64,000 nt of DNA, from NCBI GenBank assembly GCA_029167225.1, contig JARFNK010000006.1:186001-250000 (forward strand), written 5' to 3'. The stretch comes from Sphingobium arseniciresistens (GTDB lineage Bacteria > Pseudomonadota > Alphaproteobacteria > Sphingomonadales > Sphingomonadaceae). The translations under genes were made by a program, and so were the position numbers. A model generated the notes under the pieces. It ran no database searches. It was not told the origin of the DNA and worked only from the letters and a program-made list of their open reading frames with translations. This document shows, in pieces, positions 31,715 to 63,774 of the stretch (its first letter is position 1; each line of letters opens with the position of its first letter).

Positions 31715-32572
31715 ATGCATGCGATCCAAGCCAGCCATTCTTGCCGGACCGAGTACCAGCGCCTCAAGGGCTTTTCGCGGGTTGCGTTTAAAGTCGGCGG
31801 CATCAGCGATATCTACCAGCAAGCGCCCTGTCGCCTTCTGTTTCCTGATCCCATGGCTGGTGAATTTCCTTTGGCCGTGAGCCTGACCACAAGTGGAGGG
31901 CTAACCGGGGGTGACCGCGTGGCCGTCGAGGTCGTCATCAAGCCAGGCGCAAGCGGCACGGTGACAACGCAGGCGGCCGAAAAGCTCTATCGTGTGCTGC
32001 CCGAAGATCCCGACATCGCCGTGGAAACTCATCTGAGCGTTGGCGCGGGTGGGCGCGGCGAATGGCTGGGCCAGGAAGCCATCCTGTTTCAGGGCACGCG
32101 CCTGCGCCGTCGGCTGGACGCCGACGTGGCGGGCGATGGCGCCTTGCTGGCGGTGGAAACGCTAGTGCTGGGGCGCGGCGCCATGGGCGAGGCGTTTACC
32201 CGTGGGCTGGTGCACGATGTCTGGCATATCCGCCGCGACGGGCGATTGATCTGGGCCGATGCCCTGCACCTGCAAGGTGATGGCGCCGGGCATGGCACGC
32301 TTTCCCCGGAACTGCCCCATGGGCTGGGCGGTGCCCGCGCGCTGGCCACGATGCTGTATGTGGGGCGCGACGCCGCTGCACATCTCGATCTGGCGCGGAG
32401 CCTGGCGCCAGCGCCCCATGGCGGTGCCACCAGTTTCGACGGGATGCTGCTGCTGCGCTGGGCAGCGCCCGATGCCCAGGCTCTGCGCGCGCAAGTGATG
32501 GCAGCCGCCTGTGCCATGCGCGCCGCGGTGTTTGGGCTGGCTCCGCGCTTGCCGGCGCTGTGGACCTGCTGA
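31715..32572 (+). CDS. ureD: Urease accessory protein UreD
   Basis: The protein has 285 aa. Family segments: [17 protein letters not shown] (normally LYQQ...P), [38 protein letters not shown], and [39 protein letters not shown]. It forms the UreDFG complex that delivers Ni and CO2 to apo-urease. It begins the ureDABCEFG-hupE operon. The N-terminal 15 residues fit the family less well and an internal start is possible. Confidence 0.93.
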
Positions 32573-32582
32573 AAGGAACGCG

Positions 32583-32885
32583 ATGCAACTGACCCCGCGC
32601 GAGAAGGACAAGCTGCTGGTGGCGATGGCCGCGATGGTGGCGCGCGGGCGGTTGCAGCGCGGGGTGAAGCTCAACCATCCCGAAGCCATCGCGCTGATCA
32701 CCGAATATGTGGTGGAAGGCGCGCGCGACGGACGTCGCGTGGCCGACCTGATGGCAAGCGGTGGACATGTGCTGACGCGTGACCAGGTCATGCCTGGCGT
32801 TGCCGAGATGATCCACGACGTCCAGGTGGAAGCGACATTCCCCGACGGCACCAAGCTGGTGACCGTGCATAAGCCGATCCGTTGA
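32583..32885 (+). CDS. ureA: Urease gamma subunit
   Basis: The protein has 100 aa with AAGGAA upstream of the ATG. It has the complete subunit pattern [69 protein letters not shown]. This is the smallest structural subunit of nickel urease. Confidence 0.97.
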
Positions 32886-32896
32886 AGGAACCCGCG

Positions 32897-33202
32897 ATGA
32901 TTCCCGGTGAAATCCTGTGTGCCGATGGCGAGATCGAGATCAACGCCGGGCGCCCTGTGCTGGCGCTGACCGTGGCCAACACCGGCGACCGGCCGATCCA
33001 GGTGGGCAGCCATTATCACTTTGCCGAGACCAACCCGGCGCTGGACTTCGATCGCGTCGCGGCGCGCGGGCACCGCCTGGACATTGCGAGCGGCACGGCG
33101 GTGCGGTTCGAGCCGGGCCAATCGCGCGACGTGGCGCTGATCCCCTATGAGGGCGCGCGCGTGGTCATCGGGTTTCGTGGTGCCGTGATGGGAGCCCTTT
33201 GA
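32897..33202 (+). CDS. ureB: Urease beta subunit
   Basis: The protein has 101 aa from the ATG at 32897 with GAAGGAA upstream. Family segments are [39 protein letters not shown], then [14 protein letters not shown]. It is separated from ureC by 2 bp. Confidence 0.97.
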
Positions 33203-33204
33203 CC

Positions 33205-34914
33205 ATGGCGATCCGCATGATCCGCGCCGCCTATGCCGGCATGTTTGGCCCCACCACGGGCGACCGCATCCGCTTGGGTGATTCCGCGCTGCTGATCCGG
33301 GTGGAGCGGGATTTCACGATTTATGGCGAGGAAGTGAAATTCGGCGGCGGCAAAGTGATCCGCGATGGCATGGGGCAAAGCCAGATCACGCGGGCGCAGG
33401 GCGCGCCCGACACGGTGATCACCAATGCGGTGATCCTGGACCATTGGGGCGTGGTCAAGGCCGATGTCGCCCTGCGCGACGGGCGCATCCACGCCATAGG
33501 CAAGGCGGGCAATCCCGAAACGCAGCCGGGCGTGACAATTCCGATTGGGCCGGGCACCGAGATCATCGCGGGCGAAGGGCGCATCCTGACCGCCGGCGGG
33601 GTCGACGCGCATATCCATTTCATCTGCCCGCAGCAGGTTGTAGAGGCGCTCAATGCCGGGATCACAACGATGTTGGGCGGCGGCACGGGCCCCGCGCACG
33701 GTACGCTGGCCACCACCTGCACCCCCGGCCCCTGGCACATCGGGCGAATGCTCCAGGCGCTAGAGGCGCTGCCGATGAACTTCGGCCTGTTCGGCAAGGG
33801 CAATGCCAGCAAGCCCCAGGCGCTTGTGGAAATGGTCGAGGCCGGGGCCTGTGGCCTGAAACTGCACGAGGATTGGGGCACCACCCCTGCTGCCATCGAC
33901 TGCTGCCTGACCGTGGCCGACGAACTGGATATCCAGGTGACGCTGCACACCGACACGCTCAACGAAAGCGGCTTTGTCGAAAGCACGATCGCCGCCTTTG
34001 CCGGGCGCACGATCCATGCATTCCACACCGAAGGGGCAGGGGGCGGCCATGCGCCCGACATCATCCGCGTGGCCGGCCTGCCCAATGTCTTGCCCTCCTC
34101 GACCAATCCGACGCGGCCCTACACGGTCAACACGCTGGACGAGCATCTCGACATGCTGATGGTGTGCCATCACCTGGACCCGCGGATTGCCGAGGACGTG
34201 GCCTTTGCCGAAAGCCGCATTCGCCGCGAAACCATTGCCGCCGAAGACATCCTGCACGACCTGGGGGCGTTTTCGATGATGTCGTCCGACAGCCAGGCAA
34301 TGGGCCGGGTGGGCGAAACCGTGATCCGCTGCTGGCAAACCGCGCACAAGATGAAAGTGCAGCGCGGCGCGCTGCCCGGCGATGGCGACGACGACAACCT
34401 GCGGGCGCGGCGCTATATCGCCAAGTACACGATCAACCCGGCGATTGCCCACGGCATTGCCCACGTTGTCGGCTCGGTCGAAGTGGGCAAGCTGGCCGAT
34501 CTGGTGTTGTGGTCGCCCGCGTTTTTTGCCGCCAAGCCCGACATGGTGATCAAGGGCGGTTCCATCGCCACCGCGCCGATGGGTGATCCCAATGCCTCAA
34601 TCCCTACGCCGCAGCCGGTGCATTACCGCCCGATGTTCGGCGCGCTGGGGCGGGCTGGGGTGGAGTCCTCGCTCCATTTCGTTTCGGGGGCGGGGATTGC
34701 CGGGGGCATGGCGCAGCGGCTGGGGCTGGAGCGGCCGCTGGAAGCGGTGCGCAACACGCGCGGCGGCATTTCCAAGGCGAGCATGATCCACAACAGCGCG
34801 TTGCCGCATATCGAGGTGGACCCGGAAACCTATGAAGTGCGCGCCGACGGCGAATTGCTGACCTGCGAGCCGGCCGCCGAACTGCCCTTTGCCCAACGCT
34901 ATTTCCTGTTCTGA
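33205..34914 (+). CDS. ureC: Urease alpha (catalytic) subunit
   Basis: The protein has 569 aa, the family length. The ATG at 33205 was chosen; an overlapping TTG at 33199 is less likely. The nickel centre is visible: [11 protein letters not shown] (two His), carbamylated Lys219 in [21 protein letters not shown] and [15 protein letters not shown], Asp in the SSDSQAMG segment, and the mobile flap with MVCHHLD. It hydrolyses urea to ammonia and carbamate in the cytosol. It is the final step predicted for the nitrogen cluster that follows. Confidence 0.98.
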
Positions 34915-34922
34915 AAGCGACC

Positions 34923-35465
34923 ATGACCGAACCCCTCATCGCCCGTGACGTGCTTCCCGCCGGAAGCTGGGATGCAGCCAGCGCGGCCGATGTCATCGTG
35001 CTGGATTATGACGCGCGCCACCGCCGCCGCTTTCGCTATGTCACGGCGGGTGGCACTGATTTTGTGCTCGACCTGGCGCGGGCCACAGTGCTGGCGCATG
35101 GCGACGGCCTAGCGCTGTCAGACGGGCGGGTGGTGCGCGTGGAAGCCGTGCCCGAGGCGCTGATGGAAGTGCGCGGGGCCAGTCCAATCGCGCTGTTGCG
35201 GCTGGCCTGGCACATCGGCAACCGCCATCTTCCGGCCGAAATCCATAGTGATCGCATCCTGCTGCGCCGCGACGGCGTGATCCTCGACATGCTGCGCGGC
35301 CTTGGCGCGCAGGTGAAGTTGATCGAGGCGCCGTTTACGCCCGAAGGGGGCGCCTATGTCGGGGAGCATGGCCATGCGCACGATCATGACCACGGGCATG
35401 AGCACGGCCATGACCACGGGCATCATCACCATGCTCATGGGCACCACCACGACCATGCTCACTGA
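34923..35465 (+). CDS. ureE: Urease nickel chaperone UreE with His-rich tail
   Basis: The protein has 180 aa. The core has [14 protein letters not shown]-like beta strands and [16 protein letters not shown], the dimer Ni-site region. The tail from about residue 147 is a His/Asp/Gly run, with 19 His in the last 34 residues, able to hold several nickel ions. It overlaps ureF by 11 nt within the His-coding part. Confidence 0.95.
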
Positions 35466-36135
35466 ACCGGCGCTGCACCTGCTGCTGGCGTGGACATCGC
35501 CTTCGCTGCCGATCGGCGGCTATACCTATAGCCACGGGCTGGAAACGGCGGTGGACGATGGTCGGGTGCAGTCTTGGGTTGATCTGGTCGGCTATGTCGA
35601 TGCGGTGATTGCGCGCGGGGGCGGCTGGGTGGATGCGGTGCTGCTGGTCCAGGCGATGCGCGTGGCGCATGACGATGCCGCGTTGGATGTCTTGGCAGAC
35701 CTGGCCGCCGCGTTTCGCGCCAGCAGTGAAACCGCGCTGGAAAGCCGCCAGCAGGGCGCCGCGTTCCTGGCCGTAGTGCGCAAGGCGTGGCCCCATCACG
35801 CGCTGGAAGCCTATGCCGCGCGGCGTGGGGATTGGCCCCATGCCCATGCCACAGTCTTTGCCCTAGCCGCCGCCGCGCACGGCGTGGACGAAGGCGCCGC
35901 GGTGCAAGGTTTCCTCCATGCCACCGCAGCCAACCTGGTTTCGGCCGGGGTGCGGCTGGTGCCGTTGGGCCAGACCGACGGGCAACTGGCCATGGCCGAA
36001 CTTGCCCGCCGCATCGGCCCGATTGCAGGTGCGGCGCGCGCCTGCCCGCTCGATGATCTGGGCACGGCCACCCCGGCGCTCGAACTCTGCTCGTTCCATC
36101 ACGAAACGCTCTACACAAGGCTGTTCCGCTCATGA
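35455..36135 (+). CDS. ureF: Urease accessory protein UreF
   Basis: The protein has 226 aa from the ATG at 35455, giving the family N-terminus [30 protein letters not shown]. Upstream in-frame starts would read the His-tail coding sequence out of frame (repeated MTT/MGT), and no family member has such an extension. The end [16 protein letters not shown] is typical. It bridges UreD and UreG. The ureG start overlaps its stop (ATGA). Confidence 0.95.
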
Positions 36136-36761
36136 TTTCCCACAACGGACCTTTACGCGTCGGCATCGGTGGACCGGTCGGCTCGGGCAAGACGGCGCTG
36201 ACCGATCGGCTGTGCAAGGCAATGCGCGACCGCTGGAACATCGCGGCAATCACCAACGACATCTACACCCGCGAGGATGCCGAATTCCTCACCCGATCGG
36301 GCGCGCTGGTGCCCGAGCGGATTATGGGCGTGGAGACCGGGGGGTGCCCGCATACCGCCATTCGCGAGGATGCCAGCATCAATCTGGCCGCCGTGGACGA
36401 AATGGCGCGCCGCTTTCCCGGCCTGGAACTGATCTTCATCGAAAGCGGGGGCGACAATCTGGCTGCCACGTTCAGCCCGGAACTGGCCGATATCACGATC
36501 TACGTGATCGACGTTTCGGCCGGCGACAAGATTCCGCGCAAGGGCGGCCCCGGTATTACACGATCCGACCTGCTGGTGATCAACAAGATCGACCTGGCCC
36601 CGCTGGTGGGCGCAGACCTGGGCGTGATGGAACGCGATGCCCGGCTGATGCGCCGCGAGCGCCCGTTCCTGTTCACCAATCTCAAGGAATGTCTGGGCCT
36701 GCCTGAGATTATCCAGTTCATCGTCAAGACCGGCGGCCTGTCCGAAAGGATTCCTGCATGA
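36132..36761 (+). CDS. ureG: Urease GTPase UreG
   Basis: The protein has 209 aa. P-loop [26 protein letters not shown] (metal-binding Cys-Pro-His), [17 protein letters not shown] and the guanine-specificity [13 protein letters not shown] are all present. It hydrolyses GTP to load nickel into urease. It overlaps its neighbours on both sides by 4 nt. Confidence 0.97.
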
Positions 36762-37306
36762 AACGTTTGCCCAAAATCGCCGCCCTGCTCACCCTCGCTG
36801 CGCTGCCCGGCACGGCGCTGGCCCATCCCGGCCATGGCGCCGGCGGCGGGTTCGTGGCGGGGCTGCTGCATCCGCTGACCGGCGCCGATCACTTGGCGGC
36901 GATGCTGCTGGCCGGGGCCTGGGCCGGGATCATCGGCGGGCGCGCCGCGCGGGTGCTGCCGGTCACGCTGCTCGCCGCCATGCTGGCCGGCTTTGCCACG
37001 GCCGCGTTGGTGCCGGCGGGGCTGTCCGAGGCGATGATCGGCCTGAGCGTGATCGGGTTGGCGCTGGCCGCGTTGCTGCGCCTGCGCCCGCCGCTGTGGC
37101 TGGCAGCGGCCGGGGTGGCGCTCGCCGGGCTGGGCCATGGCTTTGCCCACGGTCTGGAAGCGCCGGGCGGCGTGGCGCGGATCGGCTTTGTTTTCGGGTT
37201 CCTGGCGACGGCTGCCGCGCTGCAACTGGCCGGGCTGTCGCTGGTGGCGCTGGCGCGGCGGGTCTTGCCGCTGCATGGCGCCGCGTGGCACAAGGCGCGT
37301 CGATGA
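36758..37306 (+). CDS. hupE: HupE/UreJ nickel transporter-like membrane protein
   Basis: The protein has 182 aa: a signal-like first helix, then [37 protein letters not shown], the HupE/UreJ motif with conserved His and Asp that bind nickel. Six helices follow ([15 protein letters not shown] is the second His motif). It supplies nickel to the urease encoded upstream. It overlaps ureG and the M20 gene by 4 nt each. Confidence 0.93.
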
Positions 37307-38646
37307 TGCAGCGTTTTTCCCCCGCTTTCGCTCTGGCTTTGGTCCTCTGCGCCACGACTTCTCCGCCCGCCCAAGCCAAGGCTGATCCCGGCGCTGCCCT
37401 GGCGGTCATCGACGCGCAGTTCGCCAAGGACTGGCCCGATCTCCAGGCGCTCTATCAGGACATTCACAGCCACCCCGAAACCGCCTTTCGCGAAACCCGC
37501 ACCGCCGACGTGCTGGCCAAACAGCTCAAGGCCATGGGCGTGGAGGTGACGCAAGGCGTCGGCAAGACCGGCATCGTAGGCGTCATCCGCAACGGGGCCG
37601 GGCCGCTGGTGCTGTTGCGTACTGAGCTGGATGCGCTGCCGATGGAAGAAAAGACCGGCCTGCCTTATGCCAGCCACGTGCAGCAGACCGAGGCCGATGG
37701 CAAGACCACCTTTGTCGATCACGCTTGTGGCCACGATATCCACATGGCCTGGTGGATCGGCACGGCGCGCGCGCTGCTGGCCATGAAGGCGCGCTGGCAT
37801 GGCACGGTGATCCTGGTGGGCCAACCGGCCGAGGAAGTGGTTTCGGGCGCCAAGGCGATGTTGGCCGATGGGCTCTACACCCGCTTTCCCCAGCCCGATT
37901 TTGCGTTTGGCGCGCATGTCGGCCCGTCGCCGGCGGGCGAAGTGACGATCAAACAGGGCTTTACCACCTCGGCCAGCGATGCGGTGCACATCACGTTCCA
38001 TGGGGTGGGCGCGCATGGCTCGATGCCCGACAAGAGCATCGATCCCGTGGTGATGGGCGCGCGATTCGTCGAAGACGTGCAGACCGTGATCAGCCGCCAA
38101 AAAGACCCGATGAAATTCGGCGTGGTGACGGTGGGATCGTTCCATGCCGGCACCGCCGCCAATATCATTCCCGATACGGCTGACCTTGGCCTGACGCTGC
38201 GGTCCTATGATCCGGCGGTGCGCGACGGGCTGCTCAAGGGCGTCAAGAACACGGCCGAAGCGGTCGCGATGATGTCTGGCGCGCCCGCGCCCGATGTGGT
38301 GCATCTGCACGGCACCGGATCGGTGGTGAATGAGCCGGCGCTGGGTGCGCAGGCCGCCGCCACGCTGACCTCCGCGCTGGGCAAGGATCGCGTGGTGCTG
38401 ATCCCGGCGAGCGAGCAGGGCTGGACCGCGAGCGAGGACTTTTCCGAATTTGCCCAAGGTGGAAAGGTGCGCTCGGTCTATTTCAGCATTGGCGGCACCA
38501 GCGCTGCGATGGCCGCGCAGTACAAGGCGCAGGGCAAACCGGTGCCGGTGAACCATTCCCCGTTCTTTGCGCCCGATCCGGCGATCAGCATCAAGACCGG
38601 GGTGGAAACCCTGACGCTCGCCACCCTGATGGTGGCGGGGAAGTAG
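37303..38646 (+). CDS. Exported M20-family amidohydrolase
   Basis: The protein has 447 aa with a signal peptide ([25 protein letters not shown]), unlike most M20 amidohydrolases, which are cytosolic. Metal motifs: LRTELDALPM (Asp), DHACGHDIHMAWWIG (Cys-Gly-His-Asp) and GQPAEEVVSGAKAML (Glu-Glu); the lid domain has FHGVGAHGSMPDKSIDPV. It is the IAA-amino acid/hippurate hydrolase type. It is translationally coupled to hupE (ATGA), so hydrolysis of an amide in the periplasm is physically tied to urease expression. Confidence 0.9.
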   Translation: MMQRFSPAFALALVLCATTSPPAQAKADPGAALAVIDAQFAKDWPDLQALYQDIHSHPETAFRETRTADVLAKQLKAMGVEVTQGVGKTGIVGVIRNGAGPLVLLRTELDALPMEEKTGLPYASHVQQTEADGKTTFVDHACGHDIHMAWWIGTARALLAMKARWHGTVILVGQPAEEVVSGAKAMLADGLYTRFPQPDFAFGAHVGPSPAGEVTIKQGFTTSASDAVHITFHGVGAHGSMPDKSIDPVVMGARFVEDVQTVISRQKDPMKFGVVTVGSFHAGTAANIIPDTADLGLTLRSYDPAVRDGLLKGVKNTAEAVAMMSGAPAPDVVHLHGTGSVVNEPALGAQAAATLTSALGKDRVVLIPASEQGWTASEDFSEFAQGGKVRSVYFSIGGTSAAMAAQYKAQGKPVPVNHSPFFAPDPAISIKTGVETLTLATLMVAGK

Positions 38647-38652: not shown

Positions 38653-40137
38653 TTATGGCTGCCCGCAGTGGCAGCCGGTGGCGTAGAACGCATGGGTGGC
38701 CGCCTGCGTTTGCGCGATCTGTGCCGTATCGGGCGCAGTGGCAGCGCGCGCGGCGCGGGCCTGTGCCGTAAGGCGGGCGGCTAGGGCGGTTTCGTCCAGC
38801 CCGGTGACCCGGCCATCGCGCACCACGACGCGGCCGCCGACCAGCAGGTGGGCGACATCGGCCCGGGTTGCGCGCGCCAGGAGCCAGGCGGGATCGCAAG
38901 GCCAGCCCGATCCGACCCAGTCTTTCGCCATGCGCCGTCGATCGATCAGCAGCACATCGGCCGGGGCGCCGGGAGCGAGGCGCCCGCCGCCATCGTCTGG
39001 CCCCAGGATGGCGGCGCGCCCGCCGGTCCATGCCGCGTGCAGCACGGCTTGGGTGCCGGGCAGGGCCACCGGGCCACTTGCGTCCCTGTCGGGCTGGCCC
39101 ATCAGCAGGTGCGCCAGGCGCATTTCGCGCAGCATGTCGGCATCGTCATCAAGCCCCATGCCATCGAGGCCGAGGCCCATGGCGATGTCGGCCTGTGCGA
39201 TCTGTGCCAGCGGCGGCAAGCCTGAGCGCAAGCGCAAGTTGGACGAGACATTGACCGAAATGGTTACCCCGCGCGCAGCAAGCAGGGTCAGTTCATCGGG
39301 CCGCAACCACACCCCGTGCGCCACCGTCAGGCGCGGGGAGAGCAGGCCGATCTCGTCCAACCAGGGCACGAAGCCTTGCGGGAAATGGGCATCGGCCCAT
39401 TCGCGTTGCAGCCGCGTTTCGAGCAGGTGCGTATGTACGCGGCGCCCGCTGGCGGCCGATGCGGCGGCAATCGCCGCCAACGTGGCCGGCTGCGCCCATT
39501 GCGGCGCCACGGGGTGATAGTGCAGGGCAAACAGGTCATGCTCGAGCGCCTGCGCACGATCGAACAAGGCCATGTTGGTGGCGCAGGAGCGCAAGCCTTG
39601 GTCCATAGTGGCAATGGCCGCGCGGCGTTCGGGCGGGAAAAGCCGCGCCAGGGCGGCATGATCGCCATAGACCAGCGGATTGGCATCGAAGAACGGCCAG
39701 CCAAAGGCAACGCGCAGGCCGGTTTCGCGCGCGGCGCGGGAAACCGCTTCGGCCTCGTCCAGCAGGGCGGCGCCGTTTTGCGTGTTGTGGCAATGATAGA
39801 CGGCGGCGACGCCCGATCCGGCGAGGCGGGCAAGCGCCAGCGCCGCCGCGTCATAGGCATCGACACGCGGCTGGCGCGCCAGGTCGATCATCCAATGTTC
39901 GAGCGGGGCATCGTCCACGCCGCAGGCGAGCGTGGCGAGGCCACGGCCATGATCGTGGGCATTGGCCAGCGCGGGCATAGCGACGAGTGCGGCTTCGGTC
40001 GCGGTCAGGCCTGACGGATCGCATGGCGCCATCGCGGCGATGCGGCCATCGCCACCGATGGTAATGGCATGGGCGCCCAGAGGCGGTGCATCGGCGGCAG
40101 GCAGCACCGCACCCACATGCCAGGTCGATCCGTGCAT
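38653..40137 (-). CDS. Amidohydrolase-family deaminase, guanine/cytosine-deaminase-like
   Basis: The protein has 494 aa. Metal motifs: ANAHDHGRGLATL (HxH), HTHLLETRLQREWA (His), VAHGVWL (His) and LGLDGMGLDDDADML (Asp), the layout of subtype III deaminases and chlorohydrolases. A C-terminal extension ends GCHCGQP. AAGGAAA precedes the ATG. It is divergent from the TonB receptor at 40512. It probably deaminates or dechlorinates a heterocycle or guanidino-type compound; formimidoylglutamate deiminase is a related alternative. Confidence 0.82.
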   Translation of the reverse strand: MHGSTWHVGAVLPAADAPPLGAHAITIGGDGRIAAMAPCDPSGLTATEAALVAMPALANAHDHGRGLATLACGVDDAPLEHWMIDLARQPRVDAYDAAALALARLAGSGVAAVYHCHNTQNGAALLDEAEAVSRAARETGLRVAFGWPFFDANPLVYGDHAALARLFPPERRAAIATMDQGLRSCATNMALFDRAQALEHDLFALHYHPVAPQWAQPATLAAIAAASAASGRRVHTHLLETRLQREWADAHFPQGFVPWLDEIGLLSPRLTVAHGVWLRPDELTLLAARGVTISVNVSSNLRLRSGLPPLAQIAQADIAMGLGLDGMGLDDDADMLREMRLAHLLMGQPDRDASGPVALPGTQAVLHAAWTGGRAAILGPDDGGGRLAPGAPADVLLIDRRRMAKDWVGSGWPCDPAWLLARATRADVAHLLVGGRVVVRDGRVTGLDETALAARLTAQARAARAATAPDTAQIAQTQAATHAFYATGCHCGQP

Positions 40138-50571: not shown

Positions 50572-50757
50572 GGGGGAGGCCTCTTGTTGGAGTGACCATC
50601 ATTTGCCCCGGATGGCGCGGCGCAGGTGTTGCCCCTTTGGCAGCGCCGCGTTGCGCGATGTGCCACGTTTTGGCCACGCTTCGCGGATTGCGTTGCGCGG
50701 TGCCGTTGCGCTAGCGAAGGTGCCAACGTTTCATCACCAGCCCGAAAGCCTTGCCCC

Positions 50758-53326: not shown

Positions 53327-54526
53327 TCAGGCAGCCGCGTGCAGGCGGGCAAAGCCGCGTTCGAGATCGGCGATAAGGTCGTCCACTTCTTCCAGCCCGA
53401 CGTGCAGGCGCAGGCTGGGGCCGGGCGCTTCCCACATTACTTCCGAACGCAGGTCCGACGGATAGGTGGGAACCACCAGGCTTTCATAGCCGCCCCAGCT
53501 GTAGCCCAGCTTGAACAGGTCCATGTGATCGAGCATCGCGGCAAACTGCGCATCGGTGCAGGCATTGAGCACCACGCCGAACAGGCCCGAGGCGCCGTCA
53601 TAGTCGCGCTTCCAGATGGCGTGGCCGGGATCGCCCGGCAGCGCGGGATACATCACTTGCGCCACTTCGGGCCGGGCTTGCAGCCACTGCGCTACGGCCA
53701 GCGCCGAGGCATGGTGCTGCTTCATTCGCAGCGGCAGGGTGCGCAGGCCGCGCAGGGCCATGTAGATATCATCAGGCCCGCCGCAATAGCCGCTGCCCGA
53801 GGCAGTCTTCTTGACCGGGATGAACGCTTCCTCGGTGCATACCGCCACGCCCAGCATCAGGTCGGAATGGCCCGAGATATATTTGGTGGCGGCGTTGACC
53901 GACACATCGACGCCATGTTCGAGCGGGCGGAAATTGACCGGGCTGCTCCAGGTGTTGTCGAACACGGTCTTGATCCCGTGCGCGCGCGCCACCGCGGTGA
54001 TGGCCGGAACGTCGGTCATCTCGAACGTCAGTGAGCCGGGGCTTTCCATATAGATGACGCGGGTGTTGGGCTTGACCAGCGCCGCGATCCCTGCGCCGAT
54101 CGAGGGACGGTAATAGGTCACTTCCACGCCGAACTTCTTGAGAAACTCCTCGCAGAACGCGCGCGCCGGGCCATAGAGGCTGTCCACGATCAGGAGGTGA
54201 TCGCCCGCCGACAGGAACGCGGTTAGCGCGGCGCAGATCGCGCCCAGCCCACAACTGGTGGTGACAGCGCGATAGCCGCCTTCCAGCAGGGTGATCGCAT
54301 CTTCGAACGCGCGGGTGGTGGCGGTGCCTTCACGGCCATAAGTAAAGCCGACATAGGCGCCCGAGGAGCGATCACGGCGGGTTTCCAACAGCTGTTCCAC
54401 GCTGTTGAACAGTACGGTGGAGCAGTGATAGACGGGCGGATTGACGACACCAAAGTTGGCCGCCGGATCGCGCCCGGCGTGCAGGGTCTGCGTGCCGCGG
54501 CCAAAGCGCGAAAGATCGATGGTCAT
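53327..54526 (-). CDS. Cys/Met-metabolism PLP-dependent enzyme, cystathionine beta-lyase-like
   Basis: The protein has 399 aa. VGFTYGREGTATTRAFEDAITLLEGG, SYGPAR-type (VDSLYGPARAFCEEFL), YMESPGSLTFEMTDV, FDNTWSSPV, and the PLP-lysine in NAATKYISGHSD are all present. It cleaves or replaces at the beta or gamma carbon of a sulfur or hydroxy amino acid. In this catabolic setting it may act on an amino-acid-like intermediate rather than on cystathionine. Confidence 0.92.
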   Translation of the reverse strand: MTIDLSRFGRGTQTLHAGRDPAANFGVVNPPVYHCSTVLFNSVEQLLETRRDRSSGAYVGFTYGREGTATTRAFEDAITLLEGGYRAVTTSCGLGAICAALTAFLSAGDHLLIVDSLYGPARAFCEEFLKKFGVEVTYYRPSIGAGIAALVKPNTRVIYMESPGSLTFEMTDVPAITAVARAHGIKTVFDNTWSSPVNFRPLEHGVDVSVNAATKYISGHSDLMLGVAVCTEEAFIPVKKTASGSGYCGGPDDIYMALRGLRTLPLRMKQHHASALAVAQWLQARPEVAQVMYPALPGDPGHAIWKRDYDGASGLFGVVLNACTDAQFAAMLDHMDLFKLGYSWGGYESLVVPTYPSDLRSEVMWEAPGPSLRLHVGLEEVDDLIADLERGFARLHAAA

Positions 54527-54542: not shown

Positions 54543-55346
54543 TCAGATAATCGTTCCAGCGTCAACGACGATGTCCTGTCCGGTCATCATCCGCCCACCC
54601 GGGCCAAGCAGGTGCAGCACAGCGCCGGCAACGTCGTCCTCGCTCACCAGGCGGCCCAGCGCGGTGGACTGGACGAAGCGGTTGTACGGCGCGTCGGGCG
54701 CTTCGCCGTTGCGCTCCGCCGATTGGCGGAATAGGCGGCGCAGGCGTTCGCCGTCGATGCCGCCTGGGGAAACCATGTTGACGCGCACACCATGCGGCGC
54801 GCCATCGAGCGCGGCTGAGCGCACCAGCCCGCGCACCGCCCATTTGGAGGCGGCATAGATACCCTGGCCGGCCACGCCCTTGTGCCCATAGGTGCCACCA
54901 ATCACCACGACCTGGCCGCGCGCACGCGCCACCATTGCCGGCATGGCCGCACTCAGTGCGTTGATCACGCCCAGCACGTTGATATCGAAGCAGTGGCGAT
55001 AGGCCGCCTCGCCATTTTCCCAGATCGGTGCCTTGCCGCTACTGACGCCCGCGGCGCAGACCAGCGCATCGACCGGCCCCATGTCTTGCGCGATGGCGGC
55101 GAAAACGGCGGCCAGGGCGGCGGCATCGGTCACGTCTGCGGCATAGGCGCGAGCGGCGCTGCCCACGCTGGCCAGCGCGGCGGCGCCGGTGGCGGCATCG
55201 CGCCCGATCAGCGCCGCGCGCGCGCCCTGGGCCACCAGGGCATGGGCCAGCGCCAGGCCCAGCCCGCGCGTGCCGCCGGTCAGGGCGACGATCTGCCCTG
55301 CCAGGGGGCCGGCCAAAGGTCCGGTTTGCCCGTCGTTGCCTGTCAT
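54543..55346 (-). CDS. SDR-family oxidoreductase, catalytic Ser replaced
   Basis: The protein has 267 aa. TGGTRGLG cofactor loop; the triad region is VVIGGTYGHKGVAGQGIYAASK, with Gly where the catalytic Ser is expected (13 residues before Tyr). The end LHLLGPGGRMMTGQDIVVDAG is standard. It is the first gene of the leftward PLP/DUF3830/ALDH operon. The 205-bp gap to the divergent oxygenase (55552) should hold promoters. Confidence 0.9.
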   Translation of the reverse strand: MTGNDGQTGPLAGPLAGQIVALTGGTRGLGLALAHALVAQGARAALIGRDAATGAAALASVGSAARAYAADVTDAAALAAVFAAIAQDMGPVDALVCAAGVSSGKAPIWENGEAAYRHCFDINVLGVINALSAAMPAMVARARGQVVVIGGTYGHKGVAGQGIYAASKWAVRGLVRSAALDGAPHGVRVNMVSPGGIDGERLRRLFRQSAERNGEAPDAPYNRFVQSTALGRLVSEDDVAGAVLHLLGPGGRMMTGQDIVVDAGTII

Positions 55347-55551: not shown

Positions 55552-56553
55552 ATGAGCCGTTCCGCCGATGACGTATCCGCCGCCCAAGCGATCACGCTGG
55601 ACGAGGTGCCTCTCATTGATTTTGCGCCGTTCCTGAGCGGCGATGCCGCCGCGCGCCAGGAGGTGGCCGACGCCATCGCCCGCGCCTGCGAAGAGATCGG
55701 CTTCTTCTATCTGGCCGGGCACGGCGTGCCCCAGGTCGCGCGCGACGACGTCTTTGCCGCAGCGGCGGCGTTCTTTGCCCGGCCCCGCGCCGAGCGGGCG
55801 CAGAGCGCGGCAACGCCGGAATGGTATCGCGGCTGGATCGGCGCGCCTGAGGCTGATGGCTTTTCGCGCAACACCCGCCTGTTCGAGCAATATCGGTTGC
55901 AGCATGAATGGCCCGCCGATCCGGCCGACATGGACCATGCCGCGATCTTCGACCAGCCCAACCGCTTCCCGGCCGACATGCCCGCGTTCCGCATGGCGAG
56001 CGAGGCGTACCTCGATGCGATGCTCAACCTGTCGCGCGAATTGCTGCGCGCCTTTGCGCTGGGCCTGGGCTTGGCGCAAAACCGCTTTGACGGCTGGTTC
56101 CGCCATCCTGCCTCGCAATTGTCGATGAACTTCTATCCGCGCCTGCCCGCCATGGCCGATGACGAAGTGTCGAACATGGTGCCCCATACCGACGAAGGGC
56201 CGTTCACTATCCTGGCCCAGGGCGAGGTGGGCGGGCTGGAAGTCAAGCGCCGCGACGGGGTGTGGATCAAGGCGCCACCGATTGCCGGGGCCTATACCAT
56301 CAACGTGGGCGACATGATGATGTGGTGGTCCAATGGCCGCTTCCTGTCGAACTTCCACCGCGTGCGCAACCGCGCGGGGGAAGAACGCTTTTCCGTGCCC
56401 TATTTCGCCAATCCCGATCGCGCCGTGGTGGTGGCCCCGCTGCCCGAACTGGTGGGGGCGGATACCCCGCGCTACCCGGCGGTGAAGGTGGCCGATCACC
56501 TTGCCCGCTTCTATGCCACTCTCGCGAAAAATCCCCAGGACATCTATGGCTGA
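55552..56553 (+). CDS. Isopenicillin-N-synthase-family Fe(II) oxygenase
   Basis: The protein has 333 aa. The ATG at 55552 was preferred to an upstream in-frame start. It has a DIOX-N domain (VPLIDFAPFLSG, CEEIGFFYLAGHGVP) and the iron site His212-x-Asp214 (MVPHTDEGPFT) with distal His269 and Arg279-x-Ser281 (RFSVPYF) for 2-oxoglutarate. It overlaps the start of hyuA by 8 nt and so belongs to the hydantoinase operon. The reaction is unknown; hydroxylation or ring modification is likely. Confidence 0.92.
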   Translation: MSRSADDVSAAQAITLDEVPLIDFAPFLSGDAAARQEVADAIARACEEIGFFYLAGHGVPQVARDDVFAAAAAFFARPRAERAQSAATPEWYRGWIGAPEADGFSRNTRLFEQYRLQHEWPADPADMDHAAIFDQPNRFPADMPAFRMASEAYLDAMLNLSRELLRAFALGLGLAQNRFDGWFRHPASQLSMNFYPRLPAMADDEVSNMVPHTDEGPFTILAQGEVGGLEVKRRDGVWIKAPPIAGAYTINVGDMMMWWSNGRFLSNFHRVRNRAGEERFSVPYFANPDRAVVVAPLPELVGADTPRYPAVKVADHLARFYATLAKNPQDIYG

Positions 56554-58642
56554 ACAACTCTCGCGGTCCCGCGCGCGCATCGGTGCCGATATCGGCGGCA
56601 CGTTTACCGACGTGGTGCTGGAAACCGCCACGGCGCGGCATTCGATCAAGATTCTCACCACGTATGACGCGCCCGAGCGGGCCTTGCTGGAAGGCGTGGC
56701 GCTGCTGCTCGACGAGGCGGGGCTGGCCCCGGCGGACGTGGATCTGGTGGTCCACGGGACGACGCTGGCCACCAACGCGCTGATCGAGCGGCGCGGCGTG
56801 CCGACGGCGCTGTTGACCACCGAAGGCTTTCGCGATGTGCTGGCGCTGGGCAGTGAAAGCCGCTTCGACCAGTACGACATCGCCATGGAAAAGCCTGTGC
56901 CGCTGGTGCCACGCAAGCTGCGCCTGGGCGTGGGCGAGCGCATGGCGGCTACGGGCAAGGTGCTCTTGCCGCTGGACGAAGCGGGCGTGCGCGCGGCAGC
57001 GGCGACATTCCGCGCCGAGGGCATTCGTGCCGTGGCGGTGGCATTCCTGCACGCTTATGCCAATCCGGCGCACGAGCAGCAGGCCGCGCGCATCCTGGCC
57101 GAGGAAATGCCGGGGGTGAGCCTGTCGCTGTCGAGCGAAGTCTCGCCCGAAATGCGCGAGTATGAGCGCTTTTCGACCACGGTGGCCAATGCTTATGTCC
57201 AGCCGATCGTCGACGCTTATCTGCGCCGGCTGGAAATCCGGTTGGCGGAGCTGGGCTTTGCCTGCCCGCTTTACCTGATGCTGTCTTCGGGCGGGCTGAC
57301 CACGGTGGACATTGCCGCGCGGTTTCCAGTGCGGCTGGTGGAAAGCGGGCCGGCGGGCGGGGCAATCTTTGCCGCCTCGGTGGCGGCCGAATGCGGCGCG
57401 GGGGAAGTCCTGGCGCTCGACGTGGGCGGTACTACCGCCAAGATCTGCCTGATCAACCAGTTTCGGCCGCAGACCAGCCAGATGTTCGAGGTTGGCCGCG
57501 CCCACCGCTTCCGCAAGGGATCGGGCCTGCCCTTGCGCATTCCCGTGGTGGAAATGGTGGAAATCGGCGCGGGCGGCGGCTCGATCGCCTCGGTCGATCG
57601 TGCTGGACGCCTGGCCGTGGGGCCGCATTCGGCCGGATCGGAACCGGGGCCGGCGGCCTATGGTCGGGGCGGCACGCGCCCGACCGTGACTGATGCCGAT
57701 ATCGTGCTGGGCCGGATCGATCCGGCGCGTTTTGCGGGGGGCAAGGTTGCGCTCGATCCCGCCGCTTCGGCCACGGCGCTTGCCGGTTTGCGCATCTGGG
57801 ACGGCGCGGCGACCACGCTGGCCGTGGGGGTGAGCGAGATCGTGGACGAGACCATGGCCAGCGCCGCCCGCGTTCACGCGGTGGAGCAGGGCATGACGCT
57901 GGAAAACCGCAGCCTGATCGCCTTTGGCGGCGCGGCGCCGCTCCATGCCGTGCGCTTTGCCGAAAAGCTGGGCATTGCTCGCGTGATCGTGCCGGCCGGG
58001 GCCGGGGTGGGATCGGCCGTGGGCTTTTTGCGCGCGCCGGTATCCTATGAAGTGGCGCGCAGCCATCATCTCCTGCTGTCCGACGGGGCCGATCTGGCCA
58101 CGCTCGATGCGTTGCTGGGCGCCATGGCCGCGCAGGCGCGCGATCTGGTGGCCAAGGGCGCGCCGGGCGCCGCGCAAAGCGAACGCCGCGTGGCGCTGGG
58201 CCGTTATGCCGGGCAGGGCTTTGAAATCCCCTTCGATCTTCCCGAAGGCCCGTTGCCCGGCGTGGCGCAACTGCGCGGTTTGTTCGAGGCGGCCTATCGC
58301 ACGCAATATGGCAACCAGGCGCTCGACTTGCCGGTGGAACTCCTGACCTTCCGCGTCGCCGTGGCGGCCCAGGTCTGGCAAGGGCAGGGCGCGGCAGCGC
58401 CGCTTGCCGACCGCTGGATCACGCCCACCGCGTGGCGCGAAGTGATCGATCCGCAGGATGGCGCGCCCATGCGCTTTGCCGTGGTTGCGCGCGAAGACAT
58501 GGTGCCGGGCGATGCGGTGCGCGGCCCGGTCCTGGTGACCGAGCGCGAAACCACCACGGTCGTCTCGCCGCGTTTCGAGGCGCGAATGGATGCCAACCGC
58601 ACGCTTGTCTGTACCCGCCGCGCCGAGGAGCCCTGCGCATGA
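56546..58642 (+). CDS. hyuA: HyuA, hydantoinase/oxoprolinase ATP-binding subunit
   Basis: The protein has 698 aa. GADIGGTFTDVVLE is the actin-like ATPase phosphate loop; HGTTLATNALIERRG, SGPAGGAIFAASVAAE, DVGGTTAKICLI and EPGPAAYGRGG are family segments. With HyuB it hydrolyses hydantoin or 5-oxoproline with ATP. It overlaps the oxygenase gene by 8 nt and hyuB by 4 nt. Confidence 0.95.
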   Translation: MAEQLSRSRARIGADIGGTFTDVVLETATARHSIKILTTYDAPERALLEGVALLLDEAGLAPADVDLVVHGTTLATNALIERRGVPTALLTTEGFRDVLALGSESRFDQYDIAMEKPVPLVPRKLRLGVGERMAATGKVLLPLDEAGVRAAAATFRAEGIRAVAVAFLHAYANPAHEQQAARILAEEMPGVSLSLSSEVSPEMREYERFSTTVANAYVQPIVDAYLRRLEIRLAELGFACPLYLMLSSGGLTTVDIAARFPVRLVESGPAGGAIFAASVAAECGAGEVLALDVGGTTAKICLINQFRPQTSQMFEVGRAHRFRKGSGLPLRIPVVEMVEIGAGGGSIASVDRAGRLAVGPHSAGSEPGPAAYGRGGTRPTVTDADIVLGRIDPARFAGGKVALDPAASATALAGLRIWDGAATTLAVGVSEIVDETMASAARVHAVEQGMTLENRSLIAFGGAAPLHAVRFAEKLGIARVIVPAGAGVGSAVGFLRAPVSYEVARSHHLLLSDGADLATLDALLGAMAAQARDLVAKGAPGAAQSERRVALGRYAGQGFEIPFDLPEGPLPGVAQLRGLFEAAYRTQYGNQALDLPVELLTFRVAVAAQVWQGQGAAAPLADRWITPTAWREVIDPQDGAPMRFAVVAREDMVPGDAVRGPVLVTERETTTVVSPRFEARMDANRTLVCTRRAEEPCA

Positions 58643-60294: not shown

Positions 60295-60312
60295 CCAGCA
60301 TTGTTGCGTGAT

Positions 60313-60341: not shown

Positions 60342-60357
60342 GCACAGCCGGCCCGGC

Positions 60358-61389
60358 TCACCCCTGGTCTGGATTGTCTTTCTGCATGTCGAACGCGAGG
60401 TGTTCGTCCTCGTCGTCTTCGAACGCTGGCATTTCGGCCATGGGCAGGGTGCGGCAGGCGTGCATGTCGCGCGCCAGTTGCTCGGCAAACTTGGCGGCGG
60501 CCAGTGGCAGCGGGCGGCCTTTCAACTGGCCCAGCACGAGCGGGCCATAGGTGCGGTCCACATCGTTGATGCGGCGCACGGCAAAGCGCGGATCGCGGCG
60601 CCATAATTCGGCGCCGATGTCGATCTGGAAGGTGATCAGATCGCTGGACGCGACGATTTCGCCCAGCATGTCGAAATTGTTGGATTCCACCACGATGTGC
60701 GGCTTGACCGAGCTGTTGGCCAGCCGCGTTTCGATGATCTCGCGGCCGCCGAACGCGGTGTCGGGCATGGCCAGGTCATAATGGGCGCATTCGCGCAGGC
60801 GCAGCACGGCCTTGTCGGCCAGCGGATGGTCAGCTGCCATGATCGCGACCAGGCCCTGGCCGATCGACAGGATCGGGTGCAGTTCCGGATGGCGCAGCGG
60901 GCGAAAGATCAGCGCCAGGTCGATCTCGTACGCGGTCAACTGGCGCACCGCGCTGATATGGTCGGTCACCACGATGCGGAATTTCACGTTGGGATGGCGC
61001 ACGCGGAAATCCACCACTTGTTGCAGCAGGAAGCTGCGCGCCACCGCCTGGCTGCAGGCGATGCGGATATCGCCGCGTTGCAGGCCGCCCAGTTCCTCGA
61101 TCTGCGAATAGACGCGCCGCAATTCGGCCGATTGCGAGCGGATCCAGCGGATGAACAGTTCGCCCGCCGCGGTCAGCCGCACGCCCAGCGAATGCCGCTC
61201 GAACAGCGGGGCGCCCAGATCATGCTCCACATCTTGGATGCGGCGCAGCAGGGCCGAAGGCGTCATGTTCAGGCGCTCGGCCGCCTGGCGCACCGAGCCG
61301 GCACGGGCGACTTCGTCGATATAGGCCCAGATTCTTTGGTTACGCAGCGCCACGATGGTTCCGTTCGTATTTTTGCATCGGCATGCCAT
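60358..61389 (-). CDS. LysR-family regulator of the nitrogen cluster
   Basis: The protein has 343 aa from the ATG at 61389; a GTG at 61353 gives a more usual length before the helix-turn-helix and may be the true start. The DNA-binding part is RIWAYIDEVARAGSVRQAAERLNMTPSALLRRIQDVEHDLGAPLFERHSLGVRLTAAG. The effector domain follows, with an acidic C-terminal tail (EDDEDEHLAF) beyond the normal end. It is divergent from the SDR-allantoinase operon across a dyad at 61440-61488, so it is the best candidate local regulator. Confidence 0.93.
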   Translation of the reverse strand: MACRCKNTNGTIVALRNQRIWAYIDEVARAGSVRQAAERLNMTPSALLRRIQDVEHDLGAPLFERHSLGVRLTAAGELFIRWIRSQSAELRRVYSQIEELGGLQRGDIRIACSQAVARSFLLQQVVDFRVRHPNVKFRIVVTDHISAVRQLTAYEIDLALIFRPLRHPELHPILSIGQGLVAIMAADHPLADKAVLRLRECAHYDLAMPDTAFGGREIIETRLANSSVKPHIVVESNNFDMLGEIVASSDLITFQIDIGAELWRRDPRFAVRRINDVDRTYGPLVLGQLKGRPLPLAAAKFAEQLARDMHACRTLPMAEMPAFEDDEDEHLAFDMQKDNPDQG

Positions 61390-61439
61390 GCTTTTAGCAC
61401 ACCAAGGGCAACAGGGGGTAGCCTATGCAGGGGCAGGAA

Positions 61440-61488
61440 CTTCACATATGGCCGCAAAAATCAACAAATATTTTTCAGATATGTGAAG
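61440..61488. promoter_or_regulatory. Nested inverted repeat, likely LysR operator
   Basis: Outer arms CTTCACATAT (61440-61449) and ATATGTGAAG (61479-61488) are perfectly complementary. Inner arms AAAAAT (61456-61461) and ATTTTT (61470-61475) nest within. The region is AT-rich and lies between divergent LysR and SDR genes. Confidence 0.6.
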
Positions 61489-61503
61489 AAATATGAAGAA
61501 TTC

Positions 61504-62307
61504 ATGGGGTTACGTATGGATATTGGCCTTGTAGATAAAGTTGTGATCATTACCGGTGCCGGAAAGGGTATGGGGCCAGCGATCACAAATGCATTTTGCA
61601 TGGAAGGTTCTTTCGTAGCTGTTCTTGGGCGTGACTTGTCTGCCTTGCAAAAGTTGCGTGAAGATAACCCCGAATACGCCGAAAGAATTGCAGCATTTTC
61701 TTGCGATGTTACCGATGCCGCGCAGTGCGATGCGGCGGTGGCTGCGGTGATTGCCGCCCACGGCCGGGTCGATGTCTTGGTCAACGTGGCGGGAGGAACC
61801 GGTCCGGTGGGCCTGCCGGCATGGGAGACCACGCCCGAAGCCTTTGACGAGATCGTGCGGCTCAACATGGCGGGCTGCTTCCACATGATGCGCGCGGTGC
61901 TGCCGGCGATGATTGCGCGTCGCTATGGCAAGATCGTCAATGTCGGCGGCACCTTTGGCATGCACGGGCGCGCCGGGCGCATGGCCTATTCGGCATCGAA
62001 GTGGGGCCTGCGCGGGATCACCAAGTCCACCGCGATCGAGGCCGGGCCGCATAATATCAATGTCAACATCGTCGCCCCGGGCATGGTCGATGGGCCGCGC
62101 TTCCGCACCAAGGTGATGCCCGGCGTGGCCGCCGCACGTGGCATCACGGAAGAAGAGGCCATGGCCGAGCACGCCGCCGAATATGCGCTGCGCCGCATCA
62201 GCCAGGCAGAGGACGTGGCCAATGCCTGTCTGTTCCTGGCTTCCGACGCATCGCGCCAGATCACTGGCGTCGACCTGCCGGTCGATGGTGGCTGGGCGGC
62301 CCTGTAA
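61504..62307 (+). CDS. SDR-family oxidoreductase, catalytic Ser replaced
   Basis: The protein has 267 aa from the ATG at 61504. GAGKGMG cofactor loop, NVAGG, then IVNVGGTFGMHGRAGRMAYSASK, with Gly at the Ser position; the flanking GRAGR...YSASKWGLRG matches the SDR at 46734 closely. Roughly the first 200 bp of the gene are clearly AT-richer than the rest. It precedes the allantoinase-like gene by 45 bp and is divergent from LysR, so it is likely the first enzyme of the induced operon. Confidence 0.9.
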   Translation: MGLRMDIGLVDKVVIITGAGKGMGPAITNAFCMEGSFVAVLGRDLSALQKLREDNPEYAERIAAFSCDVTDAAQCDAAVAAVIAAHGRVDVLVNVAGGTGPVGLPAWETTPEAFDEIVRLNMAGCFHMMRAVLPAMIARRYGKIVNVGGTFGMHGRAGRMAYSASKWGLRGITKSTAIEAGPHNINVNIVAPGMVDGPRFRTKVMPGVAAARGITEEEAMAEHAAEYALRRISQAEDVANACLFLASDASRQITGVDLPVDGGWAAL

Positions 62308-62352
62308 TCCCTTCTTCGTAATCCTGACCGTTCCCCACAGAAAGATCTTCCG

Positions 62353-63774
62353 ATGCTTGCCGATCTTGTTATCCATGGCGCCACCCTGGTGACCGACAGC
62401 ACCACCTTTGCCGCATCGGTGGCCATCAAGGATGGCGCCATTCTGGCCATTGGCGCGGCCGACGCCATGCCCGAGGCGGCCGACGTGCTCGACGCCACCG
62501 GCAAGTACCTGCTGCCCGGCGCGATCGATGCGCACGTCCACTTCCGCGATCCGGGCTATACCCACAAGGAAACCTGGGAAACCGGCACCGCCAGCGCGGC
62601 GATGGGCGGGGTGACCACCGTGTTCGAGATGCCCAACACCAACCCGCCGACCGGCACGGTGGAGGCGCTCAATCTGAAGCTCAAGCAGGCGGAAACCGCC
62701 TATGTCGATTTCGGCATCTATGGCCTGCTCGGCGAATCCAACATCGACGAGCTCGAAGCGCTGATCGAAGGCGGTGTCGCTGCGTTCAAGTGTTTCATGG
62801 GCAATACGTTCGGCAATCTGCCCTCACCGCCGTCGGGCGCGATCCTCGAAGGGTTCGAGATCGTTGCCAAGCACGGCTATCGCGTGGCGCTGCATGCCGA
62901 AAACGCCTCGATCATGGCGCGCCGCCAGAAGAAGCTGATGGCCGCCGGGCGCTGCGATCCGCTGGCCCACCTCGATGCGCGGCCCCCGGTCGTGGCGGTG
63001 GAAGCGGTGGCCCGCGCCGCGATCCTGGCCGAATGGACCGGCGCGCGCATCCACATCCTGCACGTTTCCTCGGGCGACGAGCTGCGCCCCTTGCGCGAAG
63101 CCAAGCTGCGCGGGGTGGATATCACCGCCGAAACCTGCCCGCATTACCTGTTGCTTGACGAGCATGCCTATACCGACAAGAAATCGTTGATCCGCGTCAA
63201 TCCGCCGGTGCGCGAAAAGGTGCACCAGGATCAGCTGTGGCAGGGCGTAGCCGACGGCACGATCGACATGATTGCCACTGATCATGCGCCGCACAGCCAC
63301 GAGGAAAAACACCGCGACGATATCTGGACCGCCGATTGCGGCTTTACCGGGGTGCAGACGCAGATGCCGCTGATGCTCAGCCAGGTGGTGTCGGGCCGCA
63401 TGACCATTACGCAATATGTGAAGATGACCTCGCTCGCCCCGGCGAAGGCCTTTGGCCTCTATCCGCGCAAGGGCGCGCTTCTGCCCGGATCGGACGCCGA
63501 TATCGTGATCGTCGATCTGGACCGGGAAACCGTGCTGGATGCGGCGGATTTGCAGTCCAAGGGCAATTCCACCCCGTTCCAGGGCTGGGTGGCGCAGGGC
63601 GCGCCGATCCATACCCTGGTACGCGGCCGCTTCGTGATGCGCGACGGGCAGCTTTGCACCGATGCCAAGGGCCATGGCCGCAACATCCGCCGGGTGCAGC
63701 AGATGCCCGCGCCCACGCCGCAAAATACCCACACCACCACGGCAGCGATACTGGCCAAGGCGCCGCAGCGCTAA
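62353..63774 (+). CDS. Allantoinase/hydantoinase-like cyclic amidohydrolase
   Basis: The protein has 473 aa. Metal ligands His61 and His63 (DAHVHFRDPG), carbamylated Lys146 (AAFKCFMGN), His181 (LHAENAS), His237 (ILHVSS) and Asp310 (IATDHAPHS). The FRDPG and MPNTNPPT segments place it with dihydroorotase, allantoinase and D-hydantoinase. It opens a cyclic ureide or imide. With urease and HyuAB present, allantoin, hydantoin or a related ring is plausible; the exact substrate is unresolved. Confidence 0.92.
   Translation: MLADLVIHGATLVTDSTTFAASVAIKDGAILAIGAADAMPEAADVLDATGKYLLPGAIDAHVHFRDPGYTHKETWETGTASAAMGGVTTVFEMPNTNPPTGTVEALNLKLKQAETAYVDFGIYGLLGESNIDELEALIEGGVAAFKCFMGNTFGNLPSPPSGAILEGFEIVAKHGYRVALHAENASIMARRQKKLMAAGRCDPLAHLDARPPVVAVEAVARAAILAEWTGARIHILHVSSGDELRPLREAKLRGVDITAETCPHYLLLDEHAYTDKKSLIRVNPPVREKVHQDQLWQGVADGTIDMIATDHAPHSHEEKHRDDIWTADCGFTGVQTQMPLMLSQVVSGRMTITQYVKMTSLAPAKAFGLYPRKGALLPGSDADIVIVDLDRETVLDAADLQSKGNSTPFQGWVAQGAPIHTLVRGRFVMRDGQLCTDAKGHGRNIRRVQQMPAPTPQNTHTTTAAILAKAPQR

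Follow-up and report, generated by a model that had tools for sequence, protein, structure and literature searches.

A conserved catabolic gene block of Sphingobium arseniciresistens, repeatedly joined by urease, may convert a nitrogen heterocycle to urea

What substrate would call for a urease, a deaminase-like amidohydrolase, three oxygenases and two kinds of cyclic-amide hydrolase, all encoded side by side? The question is raised by positions 31715-63774 of a 64,000-nucleotide stretch of Sphingobium arseniciresistens DNA (hereafter the window; contig JARFNK010000006.1 of assembly GCA_029167225.1, positions 186,001 to 250,000), which sits within a 260-kb contig of a 6.6-Mb genome. In our view these genes probably make up one catabolic island, spread by horizontal transfer, whose substrate would be an N-heterocycle (or a conjugate of such a compound) taken up from outside. 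This substrate would contain an N-C-N unit of the guanidine or ureide type, and its ureido carbon would be released as urea. The enzyme families are all known and their combination is new. The initial annotation of this DNA had not recognised a described pathway in it, and a search of the open literature, whose coverage leaves out most subscription papers, likewise returned no account.

The block holds 29 genes, from UreD through an allantoinase/dihydroorotase-type cyclic amidohydrolase (ALN), and is 94.9% coding. Genes were called as open reading frames with hand-chosen start codons, and families were assigned by Pfam and NCBIfam scans against the models' cut-offs. All the families first named, including four short-chain dehydrogenases/reductases (SDRs), are present above Pfam cut-offs and contiguous. 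Overlaps of 4 or 8 bases join UreA-B-C, UreE-F-G-J, DUF1445-PhyH-SDR2, the Rieske oxygenase and glutamine-synthetase-like ligase (GS) genes, and IPNS-HyuA-HyuB. Several divergent transcription units run across the block, and a LysR gene is the sole regulator gene among the 29. G+C content is 66.5% in the block, 61.9% in the left part of the window and 56.8% in the right part. The urease, which had been thought to end the block, is found at its left end, with UreD as the edge gene; a FecR and TonB-receptor pair (28164-31401), outside the conserved block, lies immediately upstream. The right edge is ALN, ending at 63774.

In 25 mapped genomes the content of the block is conserved and its order largely so, which supports the earlier view of a single functional block, inherited as one unit, rather than chance neighbours. 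Relatives were sought with a HyuA pattern scan over 84,980 species genomes, which detects close relatives only; of the 220 loci the best 80 were kept, among which Novosphingobium pokkalii and Novosphingobium sp. SG919 have the named copies nearest to the window (HyuA 95-96% identical). The 25 genomes are that of the window and 24 others from which longer stretches were retrieved. Because they were picked for a close HyuA or deaminase-like amidohydrolase (AHdeam), the selection partly predetermines the counts of these two genes, though not those of the others. Orthologues were called with hand-set identity thresholds, and several blanks reflect unretrieved stretches (for DUF1445 and PhyH in G150, G152, G296 and G151, unretrieved stretches or contig ends). 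AHdeam, SDR2, an aldehyde dehydrogenase (ALDH), a MetC-like lyase, SDR3, HyuA and HyuB occur in all 25 genomes. GS, the Rieske oxygenase, the IPNS-type oxygenase and SDR4 occur in 24, LysR and ALN in 23, and PF07286 (DUF1445), PhyH and DUF3830 in 21, followed by the TonB receptor (19), a major facilitator superfamily (MFS) transporter (17) and SDR1 (16). The LOG-family gene, suspected at first of being unrelated, is a regular member of the block, since 20 of the 25 clusters carry an orthologue.

The order GS-Rieske-LOG-ALDH-DUF3830-MetC-SDR3-IPNS-HyuAB-LysR-SDR4-ALN is kept in sphingomonads and Nitrospirillum, with insertions (urease in G238, additional frames in Nitrospirillum). From GS to ALN it is also kept in G011 and G296, with transporter genes inserted and no LOG match. 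The PF07286-SDR2 segment is inverted in G238, and the core is reshuffled in the betaproteobacteria Azoarcus, Aquabacterium, Methyloversatilis and Rhodoferax as well as in Telmatospirillum and G588. In close relatives the block is not split among unrelated positions, and AHdeam and MetC share a contig in 17 of 20 genomes. Wherever HyuA is at least 64% identical, further core genes adjoin as far as the contig reaches. At the loci inspected at 53-58% identity (L048 to L060), HyuA stands mostly with HyuB and the rest of the core was not found; HyuAB alone is therefore no marker of the cluster. In a six-protein tree (quick method, midpoint root), the Nitrospirillum copies form a single clade nested within the sphingomonad copies, with SH-aLRT support of 97 at the fork excluding S. 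populi and 89 at a closer fork. This nesting may be taken as a sign of inter-order transfer.

The class sample of 385 genomes, the only one not selected by the cluster, contains 10 genomes with an AHdeam match at 1e-80 or better, three of them with the full set (G000, G296, G588). More distant AHdeam relatives, at 43-48% identity (G282, G413, G441, G534, G602, G611, G620), lie mostly in different gene settings; loci L192, L195, L196, L198, L199 and L200 perhaps belong to related pathways. Rieske and GS relatives lie near one AHdeam copy in G441 and near the copy at L195. G602 (L200-L201) has a partial set of LysR, SDR4, ALN, AHdeam and DUF3830 together with urease; HyuAB was not found within 40 kb.

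The likely product of the block is suggested by its urease. The window encodes a complete nickel urease operon, here given with plus-strand coordinates as for all genes below unless marked minus: the accessory protein UreD (31715-32572; PF01774, 156.1 bits), the gamma, beta and alpha subunits UreA (32583-32885; PF00547, 156.7 bits), UreB (32882-33202; PF00699, 149.3 bits) and UreC (33199-34914; PF00449, PF01979; 98% identical in G149 and 94% in G158), the nickel chaperone UreE (34923-35465; PF05194/PF02814), UreF (35458-36135; PF01730, 122.4 bits), the GTPase UreG (36132-36761; PF02492, 132.4 bits) and HupE/UreJ, a likely nickel permease (36758-37306; PF04955, 114.7 bits). The putative active-site residues of UreC are invariant in a 34-row alignment. 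Urease alpha is present in 24 of the 25 cluster genomes (20 of 20 in one search, plus the window genome, G235, G238 and G296). In nine of the 25 it adjoins or lies inside the block, at four different places: left of AHdeam with the M20 gene between (the window, G149, G150, G152, G158) or without it (G160); between SDR1 and MFS (G159); beside DUF1445 (G162); and, in G238, as a whole operon inside the core between ALDH and LOG (L168:19142 to L169:about 4600). A 34-row UreC tree groups the five window-type copies in one clade (97/83). It places the copies from G238, Sphingomonas populi, Rr 2-17 and the metagenome-assembled genome MJ130617 in other parts, next to ureases whose genomes lack a close HyuA or AHdeam. 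The block-linked label requires at least four changes on the starred branches of this tree, with 14 of the 34 rows in no group.

Urease is a separable partner of the block, joined at different places from different urease lineages. A pattern of this kind would be difficult to account for if urea were not a product and the two systems were not required together; given also its presence in 24 of 25 genomes, urea is a likely product, as judged from gene content. The position of the urease is stronger evidence here than its counts. In the genus sample (G224 shares coordinates with G158 and was counted with it as one genome), AHdeam occurs in 4 of 94 genomes, all four with urease, which is found in 21 of the 90 others (one-sided Fisher p 0.004, kinship uncorrected).

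How might the enzymes act together? A more detailed scheme, which we hold tentatively, is an aerobic route with some 18 enzymes, passed between alpha- and betaproteobacteria, in which a natural cyclic-guanidine or ureide heterocycle would pass through oxidative ring opening to a ureidoglycolate-like intermediate and then to urea and glyoxylate, urease having been added independently several times. On the main reading, an exported hydrolase would trim the substrate. In the window this role may fall to an M20 amidohydrolase (37306-38646; TIGR01891, 253.4 bits, above cut-off) with a signal peptide judged by eye. The M20 enzyme first described as exported is present, but only the window and four close relatives among the 25 genomes have an orthologue (at least 60% identity); other lineages carry a secretory-lipase-type hydrolase (tested in G156) or a propeller-amidohydrolase (tested in G165; by eye in G164 and G166). 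In G588 an M20 hydrolase gene adjoins AHdeam. Import would use a TonB-dependent receptor (40512-42863; PF00593/PF07715) and the MFS transporter (42941-44185; PF07690), and elsewhere an ATP-binding cassette (ABC) transporter with an NMT1/THI5-type binding protein (Pfam-tested in G166). The nearest structures to a relative's solute-binding protein are 4nmy and the pyrimidine binder 3ix1.

AHdeam (38653-40137, minus; PF01979), a likely deaminase that we take to be COG0402-like, would strip an exocyclic amine, so that a ring of the cyclic-guanidine or aminopyrimidine-like kind becomes a cyclic ureide. Its residues H61, H63, H237, E240, H274 and D325, the putative metal ligands and HxxE glutamate, are invariant in 25 rows. 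It reached no cut-off of the named NCBIfam deaminase equivalogs (8-oxoguanine, guanine and others) and stays far below them (best PRK08203, 133.7 against 532 bits); it also weakly matches 2paj (49.9 bits), a 'putative cytosine/guanine deaminase' that is presumably isoxanthopterin deaminase. Because this deaminase-type enzyme is universal in the 25 genomes, the substrate could equally be a cyclic guanidine or have an aminopyrimidine-like ring, converted to a ureide in the cell. The initial proposal of a ureide or imide yielding urea thus holds for urea as a likely product, whereas the ureide or imide is only one possibility.

The skeleton would be hydroxylated by three oxygenases. A PhyH-type 2-oxoglutarate (2OG) oxygenase (45880-46737; PF05721, 103.2 bits) has invariant H118, D120, H202 and R213. 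The IPNS/EFE-type 2OG-Fe(II) oxygenase (55552-56553; PF03171/PF14226) is nearest to 9ovh (166.9 bits), followed by an uncharacterised oxidoreductase and thymine dioxygenase (122.2 bits); 9ovh is an EFE-type entry named in a paper on ancestral ethylene-forming enzymes (PMC12329707). The nearest solved structures to the LigXa_C-type Rieske alpha subunit (49237-50571, minus; PF00355/PF19301) are 7fhr and 9ina, phthalate/isophthalate-type oxygenases (PMC12445078). Hydroxylated products would be oxidised by SDR1 (44191-44931, minus; PF13561), SDR2 (46734-47513; PF00106), SDR3 (54543-55346, minus; PF00106), SDR4 (61516-62307; PF13561) and ALDH (51402-52874, minus; PF00171, 552.5 bits). GS (47801-49240, minus; PF00120), a GoaS-like ligase beside the Rieske oxygenase, whose gene it overlaps by 4 bases, would protect an amine for the Rieske step by converting it to a gamma-glutamyl amide. 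Its nearest solved structure is 8wwu (NpaA1; 418.8 bits against 179 for the next), an enzyme reported to convert aromatic amines to gamma-glutamyl amides (PMC11335346). FAD ferredoxin reductases near the block in relatives (tested in G156; by eye in G164 and G165) resemble HcaD/AndAa, below those models' cut-offs.

Cyclic amides would be opened by HyuAB with ATP and by ALN without it. The HyuA and HyuB domains lie on adjacent genes (56546-58642, PF01968/PF05378; 58639-60294, PF02538, 477.1 bits); the nearest solved structure to HyuA is the N-methylhydantoinase 7hk5 (389.5 bits), and the pair stays below the caprolactamase CapA/CapB cut-offs (442.1 and 176.2 against 1000). ALN (62353-63774) passes the NCBIfam allantoinase model TIGR03178 (382.9 against 357.85 bits). 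H61, H63, R65, N95, K146 and D310 are invariant in 25 rows, and we take the R65 and N95 positions to be those where dihydroorotases bind a carboxylate. The cystathionine-beta-lyase-like, pyridoxal phosphate (PLP)-dependent MetC-like enzyme (53327-54526, minus; TIGR01324, 479.9 against 365.9 bits) would cleave an amino-acid intermediate; K215, presumably the PLP lysine, is invariant in 28 rows. Since NCBIfam scans recognised no N-carbamoylase above cut-off among the block genes, the ureido group would most likely leave as urea, from a ureidoglycolate-like carbinolamine or by elimination, or be handled elsewhere. Urease would then split the urea, and glyoxylate would be consumed by malate synthase G in some relatives. 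A ureidoglycolate-like intermediate would release urea and glyoxylate together, in keeping with the malate synthase genes nearby. This final step, which draws on a minority of genomes, is the scheme's boldest.

The remaining genes are the LysR regulator (60358-61353, minus; PF03466/PF00126), a PF07286 protein of the D-glutamate cyclase family (45071-45883; 149.7 bits), LOG (50755-51336; TIGR00730, 156.8 bits, above cut-off) and the cyclophilin-like DUF3830 (52882-53298, minus; PF12903, 101.2 bits). Speculatively, LOG may destroy nucleotides formed accidentally from nucleobase-like intermediates. A predicted model of DUF3830 (mean pLDDT 62) matched the cyclophilin-like 3kop and, weakly, the Pictet-Spenglerase KslB in Foldseek, from which no function was concluded; the open literature search found no paper on this family. 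Biotin, riboflavin/lumichrome, pterins/folate, cytokinins, queuine, creatinine, lathyrine- or enduracididine-like amino acids and 2-aminobenzimidazole-like rings were considered as substrates, none with enough support to be named.

Behind ALN, a decayed malate synthase G gene starts at 63793 and continues past the end of the window at 64000 to about 64897 (L002:793-1897). N. pokkalii, SG919, ST904 and S. populi each have an intact gene shortly after ALN. It is full length and directly follows ALN in L028 (by Pfam) and L029; a single gene intervenes in L033 (GlcG/HbpS-like) and L039 (a 182-aa frame). A GlcG-like gene is also present in L040, and G166 has a more distant malate synthase G copy about 40 kb away. 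No further copies were found in any retrieved locus, and the window genome showed only the decayed gene. This placement hints at glyoxylate as a possible product. Further right, outside the window (L002:2457-11016), lie, at lower G+C, genes for a GntR regulator, a TonB receptor, a P5C-reductase-like protein, a class IV aminotransferase and an ABC transporter with an SBP_bac_3 protein. The left part of the window contains a tRNA-Thr gene (8568-8649) and a 776-aa protein that fuses an AMP-binding adenylation domain to a haem-oxygenase-like iron enzyme domain (21951-24281).

Could the urease be a mere neighbour, kept for general nitrogen scavenging beside a block that makes no urea? We consider this unlikely. 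Urease is found in 115 of the 385 class genomes anyway, and in 15 of the 25 mapped genomes it is present and was not seen beside the block within the retrieved stretches. Its frequency in cluster genomes (24 of 25) nevertheless contrasts with the family, where only 9 of 149 genomes have a full-length match (at about 1e-53; a Pfam search found urease in 36 of the 149 at E 0.001, 25 above cut-off), and ureases of separate lineages adjoin or interrupt the block at different positions. A family-wide Fisher test (12/12 versus 7/147, p 1.4e-13) mixes homology-found cluster genomes with a random sample, ignores kinship and was not relied on. It is very improbable that the block serves ordinary purine or allantoin catabolism, with ALN as allantoinase, urease taking urea from the allantoate branch and the other genes auxiliary. 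The ALN score and the malate synthase G genes of relatives would suit such a role, yet no allantoicase, allantoate amidohydrolase, ureidoglycolate lyase, uricase or xanthine dehydrogenase is among the block families, to which that search was confined, and R65 and N95 of ALN resemble what we take to be the dihydroorotase carboxylate site. Three oxygenases, GS, the MetC-like enzyme and HyuAB would also be left unexplained.

A pterin- or folate-type substrate, which seems quite improbable, would give the deaminase a pterin to convert to a lumazine, GS and the Rieske oxygenase a carboxylated aromatic amine, and urease the urea of the pyrimidine half. The universal deaminase-type amidohydrolase, the nearest relatives of GS and the Rieske oxygenase, the pyrimidine-type binding protein of a relative and the M20 or propeller-amidohydrolase all agree with it. 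All of this is by analogy, however: the 2paj match is weak, the MetC-like lyase and PF07286 would have no place, and the exported hydrolase varies by lineage. It is distinctly unlikely that the block combines two or more adjacent but independent pathways, such as an amine module (GS-Rieske) and a lactam or hydantoin module (IPNS-HyuAB). Sub-blocks do move as units, as the betaproteobacterial reshuffling illustrates, and the window has several divergent units; they nonetheless co-occur in nearly all 25 genomes regardless of order, and LysR is the only regulator gene of the block.

Several observations weigh against the proposed single urea-yielding pathway. Most of the enzymes fall below the cut-offs of specific models, all catalytic assignments are by family, and the order of steps is guesswork. 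In the class sample, urease occurs in two of three full-cluster genomes and in 113 of 382 others, numbers too small to show a link, and of the seven other AHdeam-bearing genomes only G602 has it. A genome search of G588 (L186), whose cluster is near-complete, found neither urease nor an allophanate hydrolase above cut-off, which brings to 16 of 25 the genomes where urease is absent or not seen beside the block within retrieved stretches. The window genome also has an allophanate hydrolase above cut-off; this and the lack of urease in G588 would fit urease as a mere neighbour too. Only four relatives have malate synthase G near ALN, and the window's own gene is decayed.

An island conserved across bacterial classes points to a natural compound whose breakdown is untraced, and the repeated recruitment of urease makes a sharp prediction, namely urea as product. 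Through the substrate, DUF3830, PF07286, the GoaS-like ligases and the EFE-like oxygenases could each gain a reaction.

Parts of the block resemble several known systems. With the allantoin pathway (AllB, urease, glyoxylate use) it shares an allantoinase-type enzyme, urease and, in relatives, malate synthase G; it differs in its deaminase-type enzyme, HyuAB and three oxygenases, with no other allantoin-breakdown enzyme recognised in the block. ALN also matches two models of ErtD, from hydantoin-propionate/ergothioneine use, at 308 and 272 bits, below their cut-offs of 650 and 600, and the M20 enzyme scores 26.5 against 520 bits for ErtE. The IPNS-type protein is likened to EFE and thymine dioxygenase by overall match. 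ATP-dependent hydantoinase, N-methylhydantoinase and caprolactamase (HyuAB/CapAB) share the Pfam domains of both subunits with the block, where CapA/CapB scores are below cut-off and the HyuA gene overlaps an oxygenase gene. The 1-naphthylamine and aniline systems (NpaA1, AtdA1) likewise pair a GoaS-type ligase with a Rieske dioxygenase, as does the block with its NpaA1-nearest GS, overlapping Rieske gene and, in relatives, nearby ferredoxin reductases. Unlike them, the block has no recognised NpaA2-type partner and a single LigXa_C-type Rieske subunit, and its ligase-oxygenase pair is set within what may be a heterocycle-to-urea pathway.

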